NCBI GenBank assembly: GCA_938743325.2
Contig: OW568894.1
Location: forward strand, 62,001 to 126,000
DNA: 64,000 bases
DNA from: Pycnococcus provasolii
Taxonomy: Eukaryota; Chlorophyta; Pseudoscourfieldiophyceae; Pseudoscourfieldiales; Pycnococcaceae
Reading direction: 5' to 3'
Made by a program: the position numbers and the translations under genes. Shown here in pieces: positions 10,174-18,122 of this stretch (the first letter of the stretch is position 1; each line of letters starts with the position of its first letter). Below the pieces are notes generated by a model. That model ran no database searches. It worked only from the letters and a program-made list of their open reading frames with translations, and was not told the DNA's origin.

Positions 10174-13100
10174 TCAAATGTCGTCAACAACATCCTCCTC
10201 CTCGAAAGGCGCCGCCGGCTCGTCGTCATCCCCAACTGGACCGCCGCCGCCGCCGCCGCGCACTTCCGGGGGAGGATTCAGACCCTGGCTTTCGTAGATA
10301 TTCGCCACCATGCCCAGGTCCAAGTACGGAGCCAGGATGATGCGGGAAGCGAGCATGCGGTCAACCGTCGACTGTGCTTCCGCCATGCGCCCAATACCGT
10401 GGTAGTGCTCCACCAGCAAGGCGAACACGTCGCCCATGCGAAGCGCAGACTCACCCTCCACCGAATTAGCCGCTGATGTTAGCAGGCGCTCGCACAGGCG
10501 CTTGCATTCGTCAGGATTGACGGTGCTTGCCGCACGCGCGGCGATGAATGCCTCCACGTCCTCGCACTTCCGACGAAGCACCGCGATGCGACCCTCCTTC
10601 TCGTCCGTGCCACGGCTCTTCGAAAGGCACTTCTGCGCCTCCTCGAGAGCGGCAAGCGCCTTGGCGTAGTCCCGGTAGTCGTCAATCTCAACGTGTGCGC
10701 AGCTCTCGTAGAACATGCTCAGCGAATCTGGAGCCTTCGCCTTGGTGTAGAATGTGACGATGTTTTTCAAAATGTCCGCATTTGAATGCCAGTCAAGCGT
10801 CTGTAGATAGTTCGCCGCCATGACGTAAACGTCGCGCTGCCGGCTAACATTTGCGAAGAACATCACCTTCTCGGCATCGCCGCCACGCATGAGAGCCTTC
10901 AGCGCCTTGACCTTGTCGCCAGCCTGGGTGTACTTCTTCGCCGCAAGCTGGAAGGATCCCTGGTCCTTGCAAATCTTTGCCACGCGAGATATCAATGACT
11001 TGCGATCCTCGTCATTCATCGCATTCGGTCCGTCGCGCGGCGGGCTCATCGCCTCGGCGATGTTCTCATCAATCATCACGCCGTGCTGAACGCACAGGTC
11101 AAGCGCTCTCTGGTACTGCCCCGCGCGCGCGAGCATGTTCGCCGTCTTGCCGAACTCGCCATTCTCGTAGAAAAAATCCGCGCACCTTGACAGCAGGCGA
11201 GCGTCGTCGAGCTGCTCATGGCTTGCAATGTCGTTCAGTTCATCGTACAGCTGATGCCGGAAGCACATCTCGAGTGCACGCGAAACGCGCCCGCTCTTGC
11301 GGTACAGATGCGCGGCACGGCTGAGCTGATTCTGCGACTCGAAGTACTCCGCGGCGTCGAGCATCGACTGCTCGTCACCCTGCACCGCCAGCCCGAGCAG
11401 TTCGGCATCCATGCCATGGCGACGAGCGAGACGCACGGCATGGCTGGGACGCCCGCTCTTCGTGTATAGTCGAATCGCCTCTTTGGCGTTATCCTCCGCC
11501 TCATACGCGCGCGCGACGTAGAAGCACGCCGCGGAGTCGTTGCTCTGGTCGCACAGCTTCGTCGCCGCTGCCGTGTTACCCTGCGCGAGCAACGATCTAA
11601 CTTGACTAAGTACATCGCCCGACATGCCGTCGACAGCCACGGGCGTCCCATTCGCCTCGGAAAATTTCACCCACCAGCGGAACACCTCCTGCGCAGACGA
11701 CAGTTTGCCGCTCGCAAGCTGCGACTTTCCCGTTCGAAGCTCCTTGCGTGCAACATCGCTCGCGTTTGTACAGTACCGCTCCAGCTTCGAGAGCTCGCCG
11801 TGCGAGTAAAGCATCCGAGGAACCTCCGTGCCCGAGGTGCCTGACGACTCGAAATGCTGAATCGCGGCCTCAAGATCGCCAAGTCCCTCGAGATGCTTCG
11901 CGTACTCGTAGTGCACTCGTTTCAAATTAACGCGATCAAGCTTATTTGCCACGCGCAGTGCCGCGTCCCAATCATTGCGACAGCGGTGTAGCTGACTGAG
12001 CAAGTCGTACCGTTTGCACGACAGGAAGAGCTCAGCCGCGTCACGGTACAGTCCAAGCTGCATCGCCACGATGCCAACGCGAGCCTCCTCTTCCCGCTCC
12101 GACTTCGCCTCGCGTGCGGCACGCGCACCCGCGACGTGCCCCATGTTACCGAGACACATCTCAGCCGCGTCGAGTTTGCGCGAGCGAATGCAAAGGTGTG
12201 CCATCGCTTGCCACGTCTTTGGGTCGCTGACGTTCTTCACCTGCCGATACACGCTCTCCATGTCGTCGCGAGCGAGGCCAAGTGCAAATTGCAGCAGCAC
12301 GGCCTTCGTGTGAACATCCGTCACCTCCATGCCGCCGAAGCATCTCATTGTGGCGTACTGAACGCGCCCAGCCTTGCTAAAGCGATTCGGCAGCGCGGCG
12401 GACGACGTGGCGTTGCCTACGTCCGCGGCGTTGTGAAACAGCAGATTCGGCGCGTACAGGCCAACGAAGCCTAATCGCTTCGCACTCTCGAGCTCCTGCT
12501 CGACGATCTTGCCATTGCCACACGACCATAAAACGCAAACCTCGGCACCTCCCGCTTCACTGCCGCCGCCAGCACCTCCGCCGTCGTTACCTTCTCCTGA
12601 GACGCCCATGTTGATCTGCGACGCTCCCATGCCGTTCAGCAGGATATCCGAAACGTCGCCAGCCATCGAAGGGTCGTTCGCTCCCATCATGGGATTGTCA
12701 GCGCCCTTGGCGAGCGTGCCAAGGATGTCCGCACCAGTGTTGTCAACGTTCGTTGCGCCTCCGCCGTCGTCCAGCTCATCCACTCCAGATGAGGTGCCAT
12801 CCTTCGTTCGCTCGTCGACGGGTTCCACCTCCACCGCGAAGAGGTTTGGATTCTCCGCATCCCAGCACATCCGTCCCGTCGGCTTTAGATTTTTCGCCTG
12901 GAACATATGGCGTGCCCACGTGTCCGTCTCCGAGTCGTACACATAAACGGCGTGCTCGCAAAGTGCGCATGAAGAGGGACTGCCTGACGGAATTCGGCAC
13001 AGCAGAGCACATCGCTTACCATCGCTGCTGACGCGCAGCTGCGTCGTTTCGCCGAATGCGCCGCCGTCGCCGTAATCGCCGTCGTAGACGCGGCCCGCCT

Positions 13101-14907
13101 TGAGCGGCTTCGCCTCTCGTCCGCCAAGCCGCCACAGGCGTACGCGCCCGTCGACGCCCGCAACGGCGAGAATGTCGTTGTGCACATCCACGCATGCCAC
13201 CGGTCCACCTCCGGCAGCGTCGTGCAAGGTTTGCCGCACGGTTCCTTGCACGTTGCGCGCCTCCACGACGGAGCCCGCAGGCACGAAGACGGTGTCGCCG
13301 TGCACCGCGAGCGAGGGTACGTTGTTGCCCACGCGCTGCAGCGGGAACCCGCCGATGTTCGACACAGTGTTGCCGCTGATGTCGAAAACCTGGCAACGCA
13401 TGCTGCTCCACAGGATCAAATTTGTCTTTCCGACGTCCATGCCAGACGCCTGCAGGTCAGGGTGAATCTGCCGAACGCCGTCGCCCGTTCTAGATGCAAA
13501 CATGCCAGGAGCATGCGCGCGCAGCGCGTTGCCCTCGTCGTCGCCGCCCTCCACTGCGGCAGGCCCGCGCAGAGGCTCGAACTCAATCACGGATGGCGCC
13601 ACCTGAACTGCGGAGATGCCGTGCTTTGCCGCGCGCTGCAGCACGCATTTCGTCAGGATGTGGAAGCTGATGCCGTCGCCCGTGGAGCATCCGATCAGCC
13701 TGGATCCAGGCGCCAGGCACAGGTGCTCGACCGTCGAAAGCGCGGATTTCGCCACACCGCCGCCGCCGCCGCCGCCGATGGTCTCGTTGTCGATGCTCGC
13801 CGCGGGCATCTCCACCCACGAATCGGAAGGTTCGACGTTTGCCGAGCTGCCCGCGGGCGGGCTGCGGTAGCTCCACAGTCGCACGCGGTGCTTGCGCGTG
13901 CTAGCGGCGAGCGTTCCAGTCGTGGCGTCGAAAGCGAGTCGAGTGATGCCGCCTTCGCTGCCTTGACCACCGCCGGCGCCAACCTCTGGCCGAAGCACGA
14001 AGTTGTCTTCGTTGAGCAAGTCGCTGACGAAGACGAGCACCTCGCGCTTGCTTCCCGTGGCGAGCATGTGCGGTCCCACGAAGCAAGCAGATCCTTCGCC
14101 GAGCGGGCTCGCGTCGCCTCCGGTGGGAAGCTTGACACCCGCGACAACGGCGGGCCATGCGGCGGTCGGCGCGACGGAGGCGTCGCGTGCGTGCACGTGT
14201 AGCATAGACTGCGTGGTGATGAGCACGGCGGCGTCGCCTCGCGCGGCGTACGCAAGCAGCACAGCCACCTTTCCCTCCGTTTCGAACGCCGGCAGCTTGG
14301 CCCCGCTCTCCTCCACTTCGATCACGCGCACGCGGCTTCCCAGCCCTCCGACGTTGCACGCTGCATAGAACCTTGCCGCCCCGGATGGTGCTCTCGGCGC
14401 GGCGGCGACGCGCTCCACCGCGACGTTCGCCTCGTTGGCGAAGCCCACCGACGCAGGTCGCAGCTGCTGGTCCGCCTTGAAGACGGAGACCTTTCCATCG
14501 GCGTCACCGACGCACAGTCTCTCGCCGTCGGCGGACCACGCCATGTCTCGGATCTCCGCCTTGTGCATCTGCGCGTCGTCCTTGCACACGCCTCTGCTCC
14601 ACAGCGACACGGTGCCATCGCTCCATCCGAGCGCGAGCACGTTGGGATACTCGCCGCTCGTTCCCGCCTGTGCCTGCACGTGGTTCGGCACGGGTCTCCA
14701 GCACAGGCTCGTGACGGACGCGCCTCTCGCCGCGACGACCGCGAGCTCGGCGTCCCCGACGGGAAGTCCCTCCTCGGTGTACACGCCCACGCCCGCGCCC
14801 TCGAGGCTGACGGCGAGCAGAGGCGGCACGGTCTGCGACATCGACCATGCCGAGCACAGCACGCGCCCTCGGCTGAACTGCAGCGAGTTGGCGAAGAAGA
14901 GCGACAT
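10174..14907 (-). CDS. IFT140: Intraflagellar transport protein 140 (IFT-A)
   Basis: A core IFT-A subunit for retrograde transport and membrane-protein import in cilia. The N-terminal half (about 1-700) contains two sets of WD40-like blades ('NVLALGWSDGTVSLWSRG', 'IRDMAWSADGERLCVGDADGKVSVF', 'VACVDVHNDILAVAGVDGRVRLW'). The C-terminal half (about 880-1530) is TPR solenoid ('AIQHFESSGTSGTEVPRMLY', 'AARLYRKSGR'-like units, 'FFYENGEFGKTANMLARAGQY'). The conserved segment 'HVEIDDYRDYAKALAALEEA' near residue 1400 is diagnostic. A Gly/Asn/Asp-rich insert sits at about 735-800. 1,577 aa is slightly longer than the usual ~1,400-1,460, explained by that insert and a poly-Gly near the C-terminus. Single exon; start at ATG 14907. 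Confidence 0.95.
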   Translation of the reverse strand: MSLFFANSLQFSRGRVLCSAWSMSQTVPPLLAVSLEGAGVGVYTEEGLPVGDAELAVVAARGASVTSLCWRPVPNHVQAQAGTSGEYPNVLALGWSDGTVSLWSRGVCKDDAQMHKAEIRDMAWSADGERLCVGDADGKVSVFKADQQLRPASVGFANEANVAVERVAAAPRAPSGAARFYAACNVGGLGSRVRVIEVEESGAKLPAFETEGKVAVLLAYAARGDAAVLITTQSMLHVHARDASVAPTAAWPAVVAGVKLPTGGDASPLGEGSACFVGPHMLATGSKREVLVFVSDLLNEDNFVLRPEVGAGGGQGSEGGITRLAFDATTGTLAASTRKHRVRLWSYRSPPAGSSANVEPSDSWVEMPAASIDNETIGGGGGGGVAKSALSTVEHLCLAPGSRLIGCSTGDGISFHILTKCVLQRAAKHGISAVQVAPSVIEFEPLRGPAAVEGGDDEGNALRAHAPGMFASRTGDGVRQIHPDLQASGMDVGKTNLILWSSMRCQVFDISGNTVSNIGGFPLQRVGNNVPSLAVHGDTVFVPAGSVVEARNVQGTVRQTLHDAAGGGPVACVDVHNDILAVAGVDGRVRLWRLGGREAKPLKAGRVYDGDYGDGGAFGETTQLRVSSDGKRCALLCRIPSGSPSSCALCEHAVYVYDSETDTWARHMFQAKNLKPTGRMCWDAENPNLFAVEVEPVDERTKDGTSSGVDELDDGGGATNVDNTGADILGTLAKGADNPMMGANDPSMAGDVSDILLNGMGASQINMGVSGEGNDGGGAGGGSEAGGAEVCVLWSCGNGKIVEQELESAKRLGFVGLYAPNLLFHNAADVGNATSSAALPNRFSKAGRVQYATMRCFGGMEVTDVHTKAVLLQFALGLARDDMESVYRQVKNVSDPKTWQAMAHLCIRSRKLDAAEMCLGNMGHVAGARAAREAKSEREEEARVGIVAMQLGLYRDAAELFLSCKRYDLLSQLHRCRNDWDAALRVANKLDRVNLKRVHYEYAKHLEGLGDLEAAIQHFESSGTSGTEVPRMLYSHGELSKLERYCTNASDVARKELRTGKSQLASGKLSSAQEVFRWWVKFSEANGTPVAVDGMSGDVLSQVRSLLAQGNTAAATKLCDQSNDSAACFYVARAYEAEDNAKEAIRLYTKSGRPSHAVRLARRHGMDAELLGLAVQGDEQSMLDAAEYFESQNQLSRAAHLYRKSGRVSRALEMCFRHQLYDELNDIASHEQLDDARLLSRCADFFYENGEFGKTANMLARAGQYQRALDLCVQHGVMIDENIAEAMSPPRDGPNAMNDEDRKSLISRVAKICKDQGSFQLAAKKYTQAGDKVKALKALMRGGDAEKVMFFANVSRQRDVYVMAANYLQTLDWHSNADILKNIVTFYTKAKAPDSLSMFYESCAHVEIDDYRDYAKALAALEEAQKCLSKSRGTDEKEGRIAVLRRKCEDVEAFIAARAASTVNPDECKRLCERLLTSAANSVEGESALRMGDVFALLVEHYHGIGRMAEAQSTVDRMLASRIILAPYLDLGMVANIYESQGLNPPPEVRGGGGGGPVGDDDEPAAPFEEEDVVDDI

Positions 14908-15362
14908 ACTATATTATAGGTAGACAGTTCAAGCGCAAGTAATCTCTTCTGAAGTCAGAGGCGCTTGCACGAGACCGGCCTCCCAGGGAAGATGCAACGG
15001 CGCCACGGCCACGGCCACGGCCAGTGCAGTGCAGTGCAGGGAAGGTCAAGGGGAAGGGGAAGACCAGGGGGTGGGGGAACCGAAAGCGCGCGGAATACCT
15101 ACCCGGGTAGTCTAGTCCGAATGAGCGACGAGTTGCGTTGCCCCGCGGCCGGCCTTAAACGGGCGCAAAGAATACTGGGCCTTGCAGGGTAGGTTGCAGC
15201 CTTGCAGGGTGTCCCAAACCCTGCTCTTTTTGGCGGAACCTGGATGGAAGGAAGCAAGGGCATAGTCATCACACTGGGATTTTGTCGTGGGAAGCAACGG
15301 CTACTACCCGTACTGGGGAAAGGGTTAGGGTTAGGGTTCGGCAGCTTGACGCACGATTAGGG
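14908..15362. other. Intergenic, telomere-like motif, no gene seen
   Basis: Upstream region of IFT140. It holds GGCCAC and GGGGAA short repeats near 15005-15065 and a short TTAGGG array at about 15322-15342. No convincing open frame. Confidence 0.6.
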
Positions 15363-15386
15363 TTTTAGGGGGGGCCAGTATTGCCA
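15363..15386. repeat. 24-bp direct repeat, outer copy of the recombinase element
   Basis: Identical to 15668-15691; begins TTTTAGGGGGGG and ends GTATTGCCA. It lies just after a TTAGGG motif. Confidence 0.85.
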
Positions 15387-15479
15387 ATGAAGGTCATCTT
15401 TTACACAAACCGAAATTAAAACCAAAAGTAGGTCTCCTGCTCCAGTAACCAACTATAGTCAACAGGGAGGGAGGGTGGG

Positions 15480-15669
15480 AGGTTGTTTGCGAAGCAAGCA
15501 ACCAACAGCAAGAGTGGATACGCGCGAGCAGCCTTAAGGGAGAGGCCGCCGGAGGGTCTCGAGACCCGCCGGGCGGCCGCTCCCCAATACCCTTGTAGGT
15601 ACAGGGTTAAGCTGCGCGAGCGACTCCCCCCAATCAAAAACCCCAATTAAACAAGTAGAACTGAAGATT
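15480..15669. repeat. 190-bp direct repeat, copy 1
   Basis: Identical over 190 bp to 16654-16843. It contains an internal palindromic stretch around GGGTCTCGAGACCC and begins AGGTTGTTTGCGAAGC. It abuts the inner 24-bp repeat. Confidence 0.92.
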
Positions 15670-15691
15670 TTAGGGGGGGCCAGTATTGCCA
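15668..15691. repeat. 24-bp direct repeat, inner copy
   Basis: Identical to 15363-15386. It lies six bases downstream of the recombinase stop codon, as expected for the B1 repeat of a split-repeat element. Confidence 0.85.
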
Positions 15692-15697
15692 TCATAG

Positions 15698-16418
15698 TCA
15701 CGTATCTCCACGAAGAGGAGAGACGAGTGTCACCAATCGTGACGCCAAATTGGCCAGCGGCGAGCTCCAAGGCGCGGCAGGCGCGACAGGCACCTCCACA
15801 GGAGGCGGCGGCAAGCCGATGAGGTGGCCAAAAAGGAAGCGGGCGGCATCGTCAACGACGACACTGTTGTCGACGTAGTGAGTGCCGACCGCATGCGAGT
15901 TGGCAGCCCAGCCCGCGATGTAGTTACGTCGATCTGGCGAGACGTTCATCGCGGTCACCGCGGACGCGAACCCAGAGCGGAAGCTCTTGGGAGCGTAATG
16001 TCCGTTGGGTGGGGCTGCAGCTCCTACAGCTTTCAGCGCCACCGGCAGCCAGCGTGCAAACGCGTCGCCACGTGCCTTCTCACCAAGGTTGAAGAAATAC
16101 GTCGCACGCGAGCACACCCGACGGCGTATCCGATCGTAGCGCGTGAGCATTTTTCCCAGCGTTTGCCACGTCGTGGTCACCGGCCAGGTGACCGTTCTGC
16201 GGCCTGGAACATCGAAATCGCAAGCATCCGGAGCAGTCTTGACGTAAGAGCGCTGGATGCCAAGCTCCGAGCCCAGTGCGAACGCGACACCCGTCAGCGG
16301 CAGTAACGCAATGGAACTCGGGCGCGACCCGGTAATGTAGCAGACAATGCACGCGAGGAGTGCCCGAATCTCGGGGAGCTTTCTGCTCTGCTTCTGCAGC
16401 TGCGCGGCGCTCCTGCGC
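15698..16418 (-). pseudogene. Tyrosine recombinase, C-terminal catalytic domain (5' part missing or frameshifted)
   Basis: The minus-strand frame is open from 16418 to the TGA at 15698-15700, about 240 codons. It shows the recombinase order: 'CYITGSRPSSIALLPL' with the first catalytic Arg; 'KSFRSGFASAVTAM', the HxxR box with Lys in the His position; 'YIAGWAANSHAVGTHYVD' with Trp and the nucleophile Tyr. The frame has no early ATG. A second frame (16490 to 16080) starts at an ATG with 'MGDAPNELEVLEARREIL' and overlaps it, so the full protein would need a +1 shift, an undetected intron, or is broken. The N-terminal core-binding domain is too short for a full recombinase. It could be functional only if such a join exists. 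Confidence 0.68.
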
Positions 16419-16653
16419 TAGCGCAATCTCCAGCTGCAATATTTCGCGACGAGCTTCCAGAACCTCGAGTTCGTTCGGCGCGTCACCCATTAATCAATCG
16501 ATTAAGAATCCAACAGTACACTTCCAATCGAAGGTTGCTGATGTTTCGATCTAAACGTAGGTATTCAGACCGTTTCGGTACACGAACTACGTCCCTCGAA
16601 GACGCGTTCGGCGTGTGTTCGACCTCCCACTACTCGCGTGTAGTGCGGCTGTT

Positions 16654-16843
16654 AGGTTGTTTGCGAAGCAAGCAACCAACAGCAAGAGTGGATACGCGCG
16701 AGCAGCCTTAAGGGAGAGGCCGCCGGAGGGTCTCGAGACCCGCCGGGCGGCCGCTCCCCAATACCCTTGTAGGTACAGGGTTAAGCTGCGCGAGCGACTC
16801 CCCCCAATCAAAAACCCCAATTAAACAAGTAGAACTGAAGATT
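16654..16843. repeat. 190-bp direct repeat, copy 2
   Basis: Second identical copy of 15480-15669. It forms the left terminus of the recombinase element in the minus-strand sense and is followed outside by TTAGGG-like sequence at about 16841-16860. Confidence 0.92.
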
Positions 16844-17330
16844 AGGGTTAGTGTTAGGGTTGGGATGGTGCCTCTTCGTCTTCGAGCCGACACTTCACGA
16901 GTTCATGGGCCAAGGTTCCCGCACGAAACCGCCCAAACTCGCCAAATCGCTCGTCCAAAGGACCAAATCGCATAACTCGCCAAACTCGCAAAAACCAAAA
17001 TCACGAACTTTCCAAATCTCGCAAACTTCTCACATCGTCAAACGTTTTGCCCATTTCGCCCCATCTGGACATCCTTTTTTCCATCACGTGAAGTGAAGTG
17101 ATGTCCCCTCAAGTCAAGTCAAGTCTCCCCGGCCGCACCATGCACCATGCACCATGCACCCCTTATTTCTCCAGTCAAGTGCCCCTTTCAGGGGAGCGTC
17201 AGAGGCACTTCCGTGGGTGGGTGGCCCTTGCTCAGCCGTTGGCTCCTTCTCGGCTCTTGAGGCGTCGTGACGTTAGCCTTAAGAGACTCACGCTCATCAC
17301 GTAAGTTCAAAAGACCCGTCCTTTTCTGCG

Positions 17331-18122
17331 ATGGCAATGTCGACTTCGAAGGAGCACGGCGCGTCGTGGACGTGCTTGGCGTGCACGTGCATAAACCTAA
17401 CGGGCGTGCTGGCGTGCGAGGCGTGTGCGCGCGTGCGAGATGGGTGCTGGAAGTGTACGGCATGCACGCTCATCAACGAACAACGCGTGCACGCGTGTGA
17501 AGCGTGCGAGAAAACACGCGACGGCGACGGCGGAGGGTGGGTGCGAGTCGTGCGCCGCAACAAGACGGCATGTGCCAAGGAGGAGGATCATGAAGATGTG
17601 ACGCCTCTGGTGAACGACGACTTTCCATGTCTTGGAAGTGGACTCGCAGCTTTGGGTTCGTCGACTACGCACACGCCTTGGCTTGCGGCCGTGCAACGTG
17701 CGCCTACGAAGTTTCCCTCGACAACACGCGATGCGCAAGTTCAAGCCCCTGCCGTTTTCAGCTCGAGCGACTCCGACGAGTCTTTGGACGTCGACCAAGA
17801 TGTGGCTACGGCGACGAAGGTGCTCGTTCGAAAGAACTGCGCGCGCTGGGAGCGTGACACTGCGTTGAAAAAGCACGAGGTGGAAGCGTGCACGGAACCT
17901 CGCAGGTCCGACGACGCGTCGAGATCGGAGTGGTCGTTGGAGGGGCGCAGCGGCCACGTCAAGATGCGCCGCGTCGTGAATGGCGTCGTGCAGAAGATGA
18001 TGTTGGCATGTACGCCGTCAGACTGTCGCGCGCATAAGAACGACGCGGCGAGGCTGAAGCGCGCGGATCGCGCGCTACACGAGCTCGCCGGCGACGGGCG
18101 CAAGTTATTTGGGTTTTTTTGA
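17331..18122 (+). CDS. Double RanBP2-type zinc-finger protein
   Basis: Two adjacent RanBP2-like fingers stand at residues about 10-33 ('WTCLACTCINLTGVLACEAC') and 40-61 ('WKCTACTLINEQRVHACEAC'): W-x-C-x2-C, Asn, C-x2-C in each. These fingers bind single-stranded RNA or ubiquitin in known proteins. A middle segment has 'VNDDFPCLGS', which resembles the DFPSL/EFPSL peptides of RNA-associated proteins. The C-terminus is basic ('KMRRVVNGVVQKMMLACTPSDCRAHKNDAARLKRADRAL'). 263 aa, single exon, ATG 17331. A GTAAGT at 17301 lies upstream, so an untranslated first exon is possible. It is convergent with the IQ protein (131 bp between stops). Exact role unknown. Confidence 0.75.
   Translation: MAMSTSKEHGASWTCLACTCINLTGVLACEACARVRDGCWKCTACTLINEQRVHACEACEKTRDGDGGGWVRVVRRNKTACAKEEDHEDVTPLVNDDFPCLGSGLAALGSSTTHTPWLAAVQRAPTKFPSTTRDAQVQAPAVFSSSDSDESLDVDQDVATATKVLVRKNCARWERDTALKKHEVEACTEPRRSDDASRSEWSLEGRSGHVKMRRVVNGVVQKMMLACTPSDCRAHKNDAARLKRADRALHELAGDGRKLFGFF

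Follow-up and report, generated by a model that had tools for sequence, protein, structure and literature searches.

The locus at 15363-16843 of the window, a stretch of 64,000 nucleotides of the green alga Pycnococcus provasolii, raises the question what kind of element is built from split direct repeats around part of a tyrosine recombinase (YR). The initial annotation saw a Ngaro-like arrangement and considered either a non-autonomous DIRS relative or a recombinase-only element not yet described.

On the minus strand the element reads A1 (16843-16654), body, B1 (15691-15668) plus A2 (15669-15480), a 93-nt spacer and B2 (15386-15363), and the order A-body-B-A-spacer-B given in the initial annotation is correct. 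So is the claim that both direct repeats are exact. Repeat A has an identical core of 190 nt (15480-15669 versus 16654-16843) and is 98% identical over 202 nt (15468-15669 versus 16642-16843), repeat B is identical over 24 nt (15363-15386 and 15668-15691), and B1 and the end of A2 overlap by 2 nt. The parts are listed below; positions with the prefix E follow the numbering of a complete relative, L011, in coding direction (E1-4777).

15321..15362, plus strand: 3' flank of the element, a degenerate telomere-type repeat that terminates in ..GATTAGGG
15363..15386, minus strand: B2, outer 24-nt repeat and 3' end of the element, identical to 15668-15691
15387..15479, minus strand: spacer of 93 nt between A2 and B2
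15480..15669, minus strand: A2, inner 190-nt repeat, identical to A1, with a strong hairpin predicted by folding
15668..15691, minus strand: B1, inner 24-nt repeat, exact match to B2
15698..16381, minus strand: putative C-terminal 227 codons and stop of the YR by comparison with L011, catalytic residues retained and N-terminal half gone
16380..16382, no strand: deletion junction, E442 joined to E3780, 3,337 nt absent, 1-nt microhomology
16381..16490, minus strand: gag remnant that retains the ATG and 36 codons at the start and is not in frame with the YR remnant
16491..16653, minus strand: 5' leader from A1 to the gag start, assigned by position only
16654..16843, minus strand: A1, 190-nt repeat and 5' end of the element, identical to A2
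16844..16864, plus strand: 5' flank AGGGTTAGTGTTAGGGTTGGG, a telomere-type repeat in phase with the TT that ends the element

The putative recombinase residues R, (K)xxR, W and Y noticed in the body are all seen in the minus-strand frame 15698-16417, where TGSRPSSIALL, YVKT, APKSFRSG, AGW and THYVD give the set R, K, KxxR, W and Y. Whole variants of repeat A are predicted to fold into a hairpin of -73 to -87 kcal/mol centred on the palindrome GGGTCTCGAGACCC, and sub-family-specific inserts are located within or near this palindrome. Changes on both sides of the stem occur at one of 54 pairs and the covariation term is 0. The element neighbours an IFT140 gene (10174-14913, minus strand; best PDB chain 8bda_G with 782 bits against 538 for the runner-up) and a plus-strand frame at 17283-18122. 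The 8bda chain is presumably from Chlamydomonas. In the genome the antenna family PF00504 has 51 matches, and two antenna-protein gene clusters with near-equal scores and members on both strands were observed at C31:133072-142609 and C31:360395-366434. The antenna genes mark the genome as that of an alga; together with the IFT140 match they speak against Cafeteria, a candidate host in view of the Ngaro elements known from it.

L011 (C4:115324-120100; 4,777 nt) is found in the same genome and has the same ends as the window copy. Between the same split direct repeats it carries, on one strand, open frames for gag, a pol with reverse transcriptase (RT), RNase H and a methyltransferase-like (MT) region, and the YR. 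The gag-like frame starts with an ATG at E333, is 273 aa long and contains no cysteine, hence no zinc knuckle. The pol frame measures 675 aa, and the YR follows in another frame that reaches E4463. RT and RNase H share one frame, with a Pfam match to RVT_1 of 61 bits, above the cut-off, and one to RT_RNaseH of 20.9 bits, below the cut-off of 24.8 (E = 4e-4). The direct match of pol to the Dam methyltransferase family is weak and under the cut-off (E = 0.04). The MT reading follows instead from homology: the last 195 aa of pol are 31% identical to two frames, at C38 and C9 (E = 3.8e-6 and 6.9e-6), which themselves score 56.6 and 56.2 bits for Dam (cut-off 28.1). The motif NPPW, which we take to be a methyltransferase motif, is found in L011 as well. 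The frames at C38:329143-330654 and C9:840949-842514, with RT and a Dam domain above the cut-off, are further DIRS-order families. Fragments of a Dam domain are also found less than 1.5 kb from the start of two contigs (C41:1357-1488 and C17:1248-1481) and may be DIRS-order remnants next to telomeres.

The YR of L011 and of the window copy gives no match in Pfam or PHROGs, except a weak N-terminal SAM-like one (E = 0.064), and a comparison with the PDB yields no recombinase match, only chymotrypsin-inhibitor noise (best E = 0.25). That it is a tyrosine recombinase is suggested by the residues R...(H/K)xxR...(H/W)...Y, by their invariance between two families of 37% identity, and by the position after pol. 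The second family, represented by L062 in the same genome, shows 37% identity to the window frame and 35% to L011 (E = 5.6e-29). The copy of it that was read (C2:710154-713687) contains a gag-like frame, an RT frame truncated near its end and a C-terminal YR, and looks as if its middle was lost as well.

When aligned to L011, the window copy covers E1-442 and E3780-4777 with one nucleotide common at the join. It equals L011 minus 3,337 nt, and the missing part takes in gag beyond its start, the entire pol and YR residues 1-175, counted on a 402-aa stretch of L011 whose start was chosen by us and is not a methionine. The YR remnant is 92% identical to residues 165-402 of this stretch. Owing to the deletion the gag remnant runs into the YR remnant out of frame. 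This accounts for the frame change that had seemed necessary to reach the N-terminus: the broken frame is real, but it marks a deletion junction near 16381 rather than an intron or a programmed frameshift. Judged by this alignment, the window copy derives by internal deletion from an RT-bearing element of the L011 type, and the earlier placement as a non-autonomous DIRS relative stands, with the DIRS order taken in the wide sense. A Crypton, which is a YR DNA transposon without RT, was rejected because the complete relative encodes RT.

Based on its features, the L011-type element can provisionally be named PAT/Toc-like, of the Toc3 type, within the DIRS order. The features in question are the presence of MT, the split direct repeats, the lack of a zinc finger and the direct orientation of the YR. 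The accessible part of PMC4157794 calls the classifying features of the DIRS order homoplastic. The same part describes Toc3 by split direct repeats, RT/RNase H with MT, a YR in the same direction and a Gag without zinc finger; going by this description, L011 has the same set of features as these Toc3/PAT elements of green algae, its YR being a putative one. Insertion into telomere-type repeats and a population with one deletion per copy are unmentioned in that part of the source. Kangaroo of Volvox is described there as another algal PAT that, like L011, has split repeats and no zinc finger. However, its YR is inverted and its internal repeats lie between MT and YR, whereas the YR of L011 has the direction of the RT and the internal repeats come after it; YR orientation and repeat position exclude Kangaroo. 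Ngaro elements carry no methyltransferase domain according to the accessible parts of PMC4157794 and PMC3266345, and the MT-like region after RNase H in L011 excludes a Ngaro identity as well. What remains of the Ngaro likeness is the repeat layout. This A1...B1A2B2 layout is shared with the Ngaro elements of Cafeteria burkhardae, for which the accessible part of PMC8547959 reports A1-[ORFs]-B1A2B2, about 10-25 copies per strain, solo AB repeats and, in type 2b, deletions of ~2 kb covering ORF1. Type 2b as described there is one deletion class, whereas here each charted junction differs.

The genome searched comprises 32.3 Mb in 46 contigs. A DNA search returned at least 93 matching pieces (40 of 91 candidates scored). 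Exact end patterns were found at 92 sites for the A end (19-mers) and at 85 for B (23-mers), whereas the reversed control patterns matched nowhere in the genome, so the repeats are more than chance. The search for the repeats and for an RT-bearing relative that had been recommended thus yielded both. Directly next to 37 of the 92 A ends lies B1, which makes them A2; the other 55 are outer ends (A1 or solo). For 34 of the 37 A2, an outer A end lies no more than 6.5 kb away. We read 35 regions plus the window copy (36 places), and about 20 further A or B ends are located outside this set. YR C-terminal sequence is retained at 25 fetched loci of the 36 copies read, and in the window copy, which does not agree with the possibility, raised earlier, that the repeats are unrelated to the recombinase. 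Neither is the locus an assembly artefact of two fragments, as the loci have different flanks. Three places (C3, C4, C5) have the RT of the L011 family, four (C4, C10, C28, C15) have a complete MT region, and C4 alone has both. Both A repeats are whole in 26 copies, and in every one of these A1 is identical to A2, which fits repeats rebuilt in the last round of replication. Variants of A measure 169, 178, 179 or 190 nt, and A1 and A2 vary jointly between sub-families.

Similar losses are seen across these copies, and the feature in the window is one ordinary member of the deleted population. Among 34 A1-A2 pairs, one has the full spacing (L011, 4,491), 32 are shorter (632-2,904) and one is longer (5,552 on C22, unread); the contig of the latter gives no RVT_1 match. 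We charted 29 junctions in 27 copies and all 29 differ, with deletions of 948-3,869 nt and two deletions each in L015 and L018. The chart omits L011 (complete), L021 (12-nt filler) and L041 (rearranged), as well as L027, L029, L030, L035, L039 and L043 (end missing or complex). The mean microhomology at the junctions, 1.45 nt, exceeds the 0.72 nt of random pairs (p = 0.0002) and is slightly inflated by L019 and L033 (two of 29), where the overlap is inexact on L011. The 5' breakpoints cluster, with nine of 29 within 52 nt (E592-642; 0 of 5,000 uniform draws), and the 3' starts are spread across the final 1.3 kb of the element, apart from a few further in. Hot spots defined by exactly shared single breakpoints were not significant (p = 0.07 and 0.20). 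Splicing as the source of the missing middle was also rejected: GT..AG or GC..AG fits at none of the 29 junctions.

A few copies are more complex. L035:2220-4659 (C9) consists of two 5' parts head to head and 1 nt apart, with 98.1% and 99.9% identity to L011, that is, an inverted join of two templates with no 3' end. In L030:2553-3013 (C23:102252-102712), 461 nt of a different repeat family lie between E1463 and E4735 (the last 43 nt); this repeat has 28 matches in the genome, 11 of them full-length at 98% or more, its own place included. L030 looks like a chimeric product. L010 resembles L022 in a block near E812-1011 and is without the L022 change 419T>C and earlier ones, a patchwork as template mixing would give. 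Nested insertions with apparent target duplications of 3 nt and 9 nt were observed in L015:2823-3769 and L038:3993-4242, respectively.

The copies are young. For the L011 sub-family, 16 copies were compared in 17 segments that add up to 33,421 aligned nt. They show 0.10-1.94% substitutions relative to L011; private substitutions number 60, and gap columns are absent. Among the 5,349 codons of the YR remnants in 23 copies there are no stops and one gap column (L015), and relative to L011 these remnants show 294 synonymous against 67 non-synonymous codon changes. With stops lacking and synonymous changes in excess, the copies must derive from masters kept under selection and have not degenerated at their present sites. 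Given that young copies without small indels nevertheless have kilobase losses, such losses outrun small indels.

A within-genome control is provided by an RT/RNase H family that we take to be Ty3-like from its domain set. Its copies were collected by DNA search, since a search for RT-bearing loci favours copies that keep RT. The whole query of 3,018 nt, which is only part of the family's frame of ~2,160 codons, is covered at 15 of 20 places (at least 97% identity and 400 nt). Among these 20, the two on C10 could be a single copy, and that on C11 looks internally deleted. Divergence at most places is 0-2%. The family is present on C5, C6, C14, C15, C17, C19, C40, C41 and other contigs, and an uninterrupted frame of 2,160 aa is found at 13 loci, most of them within 8 mismatches over 3,432 nt. 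The difference between 15 of 20 undeleted places and one of 34 full-length pairs is highly significant (Fisher p = 2.5e-8). Young and otherwise intact copies next to a mostly undeleted control family suggest that the deletions probably arose during replication, before integration.

We consider it likely that the window copy is a non-autonomous PAT/Toc-type YR retrotransposon whose middle was lost during replication. The evidence consists of genomic copies, and the steps at the level of RNA, cDNA and circle are our inference. RNA of a complete element would be reverse transcribed and both the A and B repeats rebuilt, giving a circle with an A-TT-B junction. The YR would recombine this junction with a GGGTTAGGG target, at the TT of the latter, and TT would remain on both sides. 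Most circles would be closed after incomplete copying, with a 5' piece and a 3' piece joined at 0-3 nt of homology, whether through end joining or through template jumping. In this way the middle, from the end of gag over RT, RNase H and MT to the start of the YR, would be lost at replication itself, in analogy to LINE copies, which are cut short at their 5' end.

The strongest competitor is that copies were inserted whole and lost their middle later through ordinary host DNA loss. Private deletions agree with this, and so do the copies without one end (L027, L029, L031 and others), which loss after insertion would also produce. Yet the 16 young copies show no small indel and each has at least one kilobase-scale loss, most A2-bearing copies retain both ends (the 34 of 37 mentioned above), and the similarly young retroelement family of the same genome is mostly undeleted, as far as its 3,018-nt query goes. 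This explanation seems rather unlikely to us. Slightly less probable still is movement of the element as DNA, by YR-driven excision and interrupted gap repair from a sister copy. In P elements and Ac/Ds, interrupted gap repair produces internal deletions that are private to a copy, show short microhomology and spare the ends, which is the very combination found here. However, the element encodes no transposase of the cut-and-paste type, and the agreement of A1 and A2 in 26 of 26 copies, with four A variants each common to both repeats, points to repeats rebuilt by replication.

The two remaining explanations have little in their favour. One deleted form may have been amplified in trans by the complete element, as a MITE-like family, and the intact ends common to the window copy and L011 would allow this. 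We regard it as very improbable, as all charted junctions differ and even the nearest kin of the window copy, L018 and L027, with 99.5-99.6% DNA identity over the common parts, have other breakpoints. Least credible of all, and contradicted by the present data, is the recombinase-only or otherwise undescribed RT-free relative of the initial annotation. The window copy taken by itself does have space for a YR only, but L011 combines RT with the same ends and the same flanking coding parts, and the YR in the window is truncated, with the N-terminal half gone and no start codon in the frame of the gag start.

In our preferred reading the YR would carry out the integration, and the flanks show where the insertions lie. 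The telomere repeat is TTAGGG, as found at both ends of C1, and among the matches listed C1 also has 15 or so interstitial TTAGGG arrays of at least five units. On the B side, GGG flanks the element at 25 of 32 ends and TTAGGG at nine, one of the 32 (L041) being a neighbouring B repeat instead of host DNA. On the A side, AGGG comes next at 18 of 33 flanks read and AGGGTTAGGG at 10; genome-wide, AGGG comes next at 28 of 55 outer A ends. The per-position backgrounds are 0.0033-0.0037 for AGGG and 1.1e-5 to 6.4e-5 for AGGGTTAGGG, and binomial tests, with sites treated as independent, give p = 3e-53 and 1e-34. Insertions thus occur at GGG|TT|AGGG, often within TTAGGG repeats. The terminal TT of the element ends is indistinguishable from that of the target, and the crossover is therefore read as GGG-TT-AGGG. 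The remaining 27 outer A ends, that of L011 included, are without a following AGGG, which suggests that one side is often imprecise or that the target is looser. Unlike the other flanks looked at, those of L012 (12 nt) and L038 (longer) have a stretch repeated on both sides, a hint of repair of one side.

The same target position is known from a distant eukaryote. TATE of Leishmania (Viannia) is described, in the accessible parts of PMC6681497 and PMC2696322, as a YR retroelement that inserts at a precise place of the telomeric hexamer, after GGG and before TTA, with a duplicated TT on its two sides. The arrangement GGG-TT-element-TT-AGGG found here is alike by this described position. TATE forms tandem clusters at the chromosome ends of a trypanosomatid, whereas the present copies are single and located along chromosome arms, in interstitial or degenerate repeats. 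Our literature search, which covered mostly work outside subscription journals and is weak evidence of absence, returned no algal YR retrotransposon in telomere repeats and no DIRS elements with one deletion per copy. A PAT/Toc-like family with a TATE-like target and privately deleted copies is a variant of a known element type.

Summarizing, these copies may say something about how such elements replicate. For the DIRS order, the step from RNA to an integrable circle is covered by a circle model (PMC3266345, accessible part). It has been modelled, not shown, and the about three dozen natural products with 29 junctions and an in-genome control presented here are direct footprints of it. As a tentative and rather speculative extension, YR retrotransposons of the L011 class might make their DNA piecewise from both ends and close the circle by joining, so that a copy would normally lose its middle and only exceptionally be complete. 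The progress of each strand would in that case be recorded in the 5' stops clustered at E592-642 and in the scattered 3' starts, and an exact TT crossover in telomere repeats, as in TATE, would provide harmless homes for shortened circles. That the GGG|TT|A position recurs with TATE in a distant eukaryote points either to an ancient relationship or to tyrosine recombinases having settled on telomere-type repeats more than once; the sites that these enzymes prefer are readily testable in vitro.
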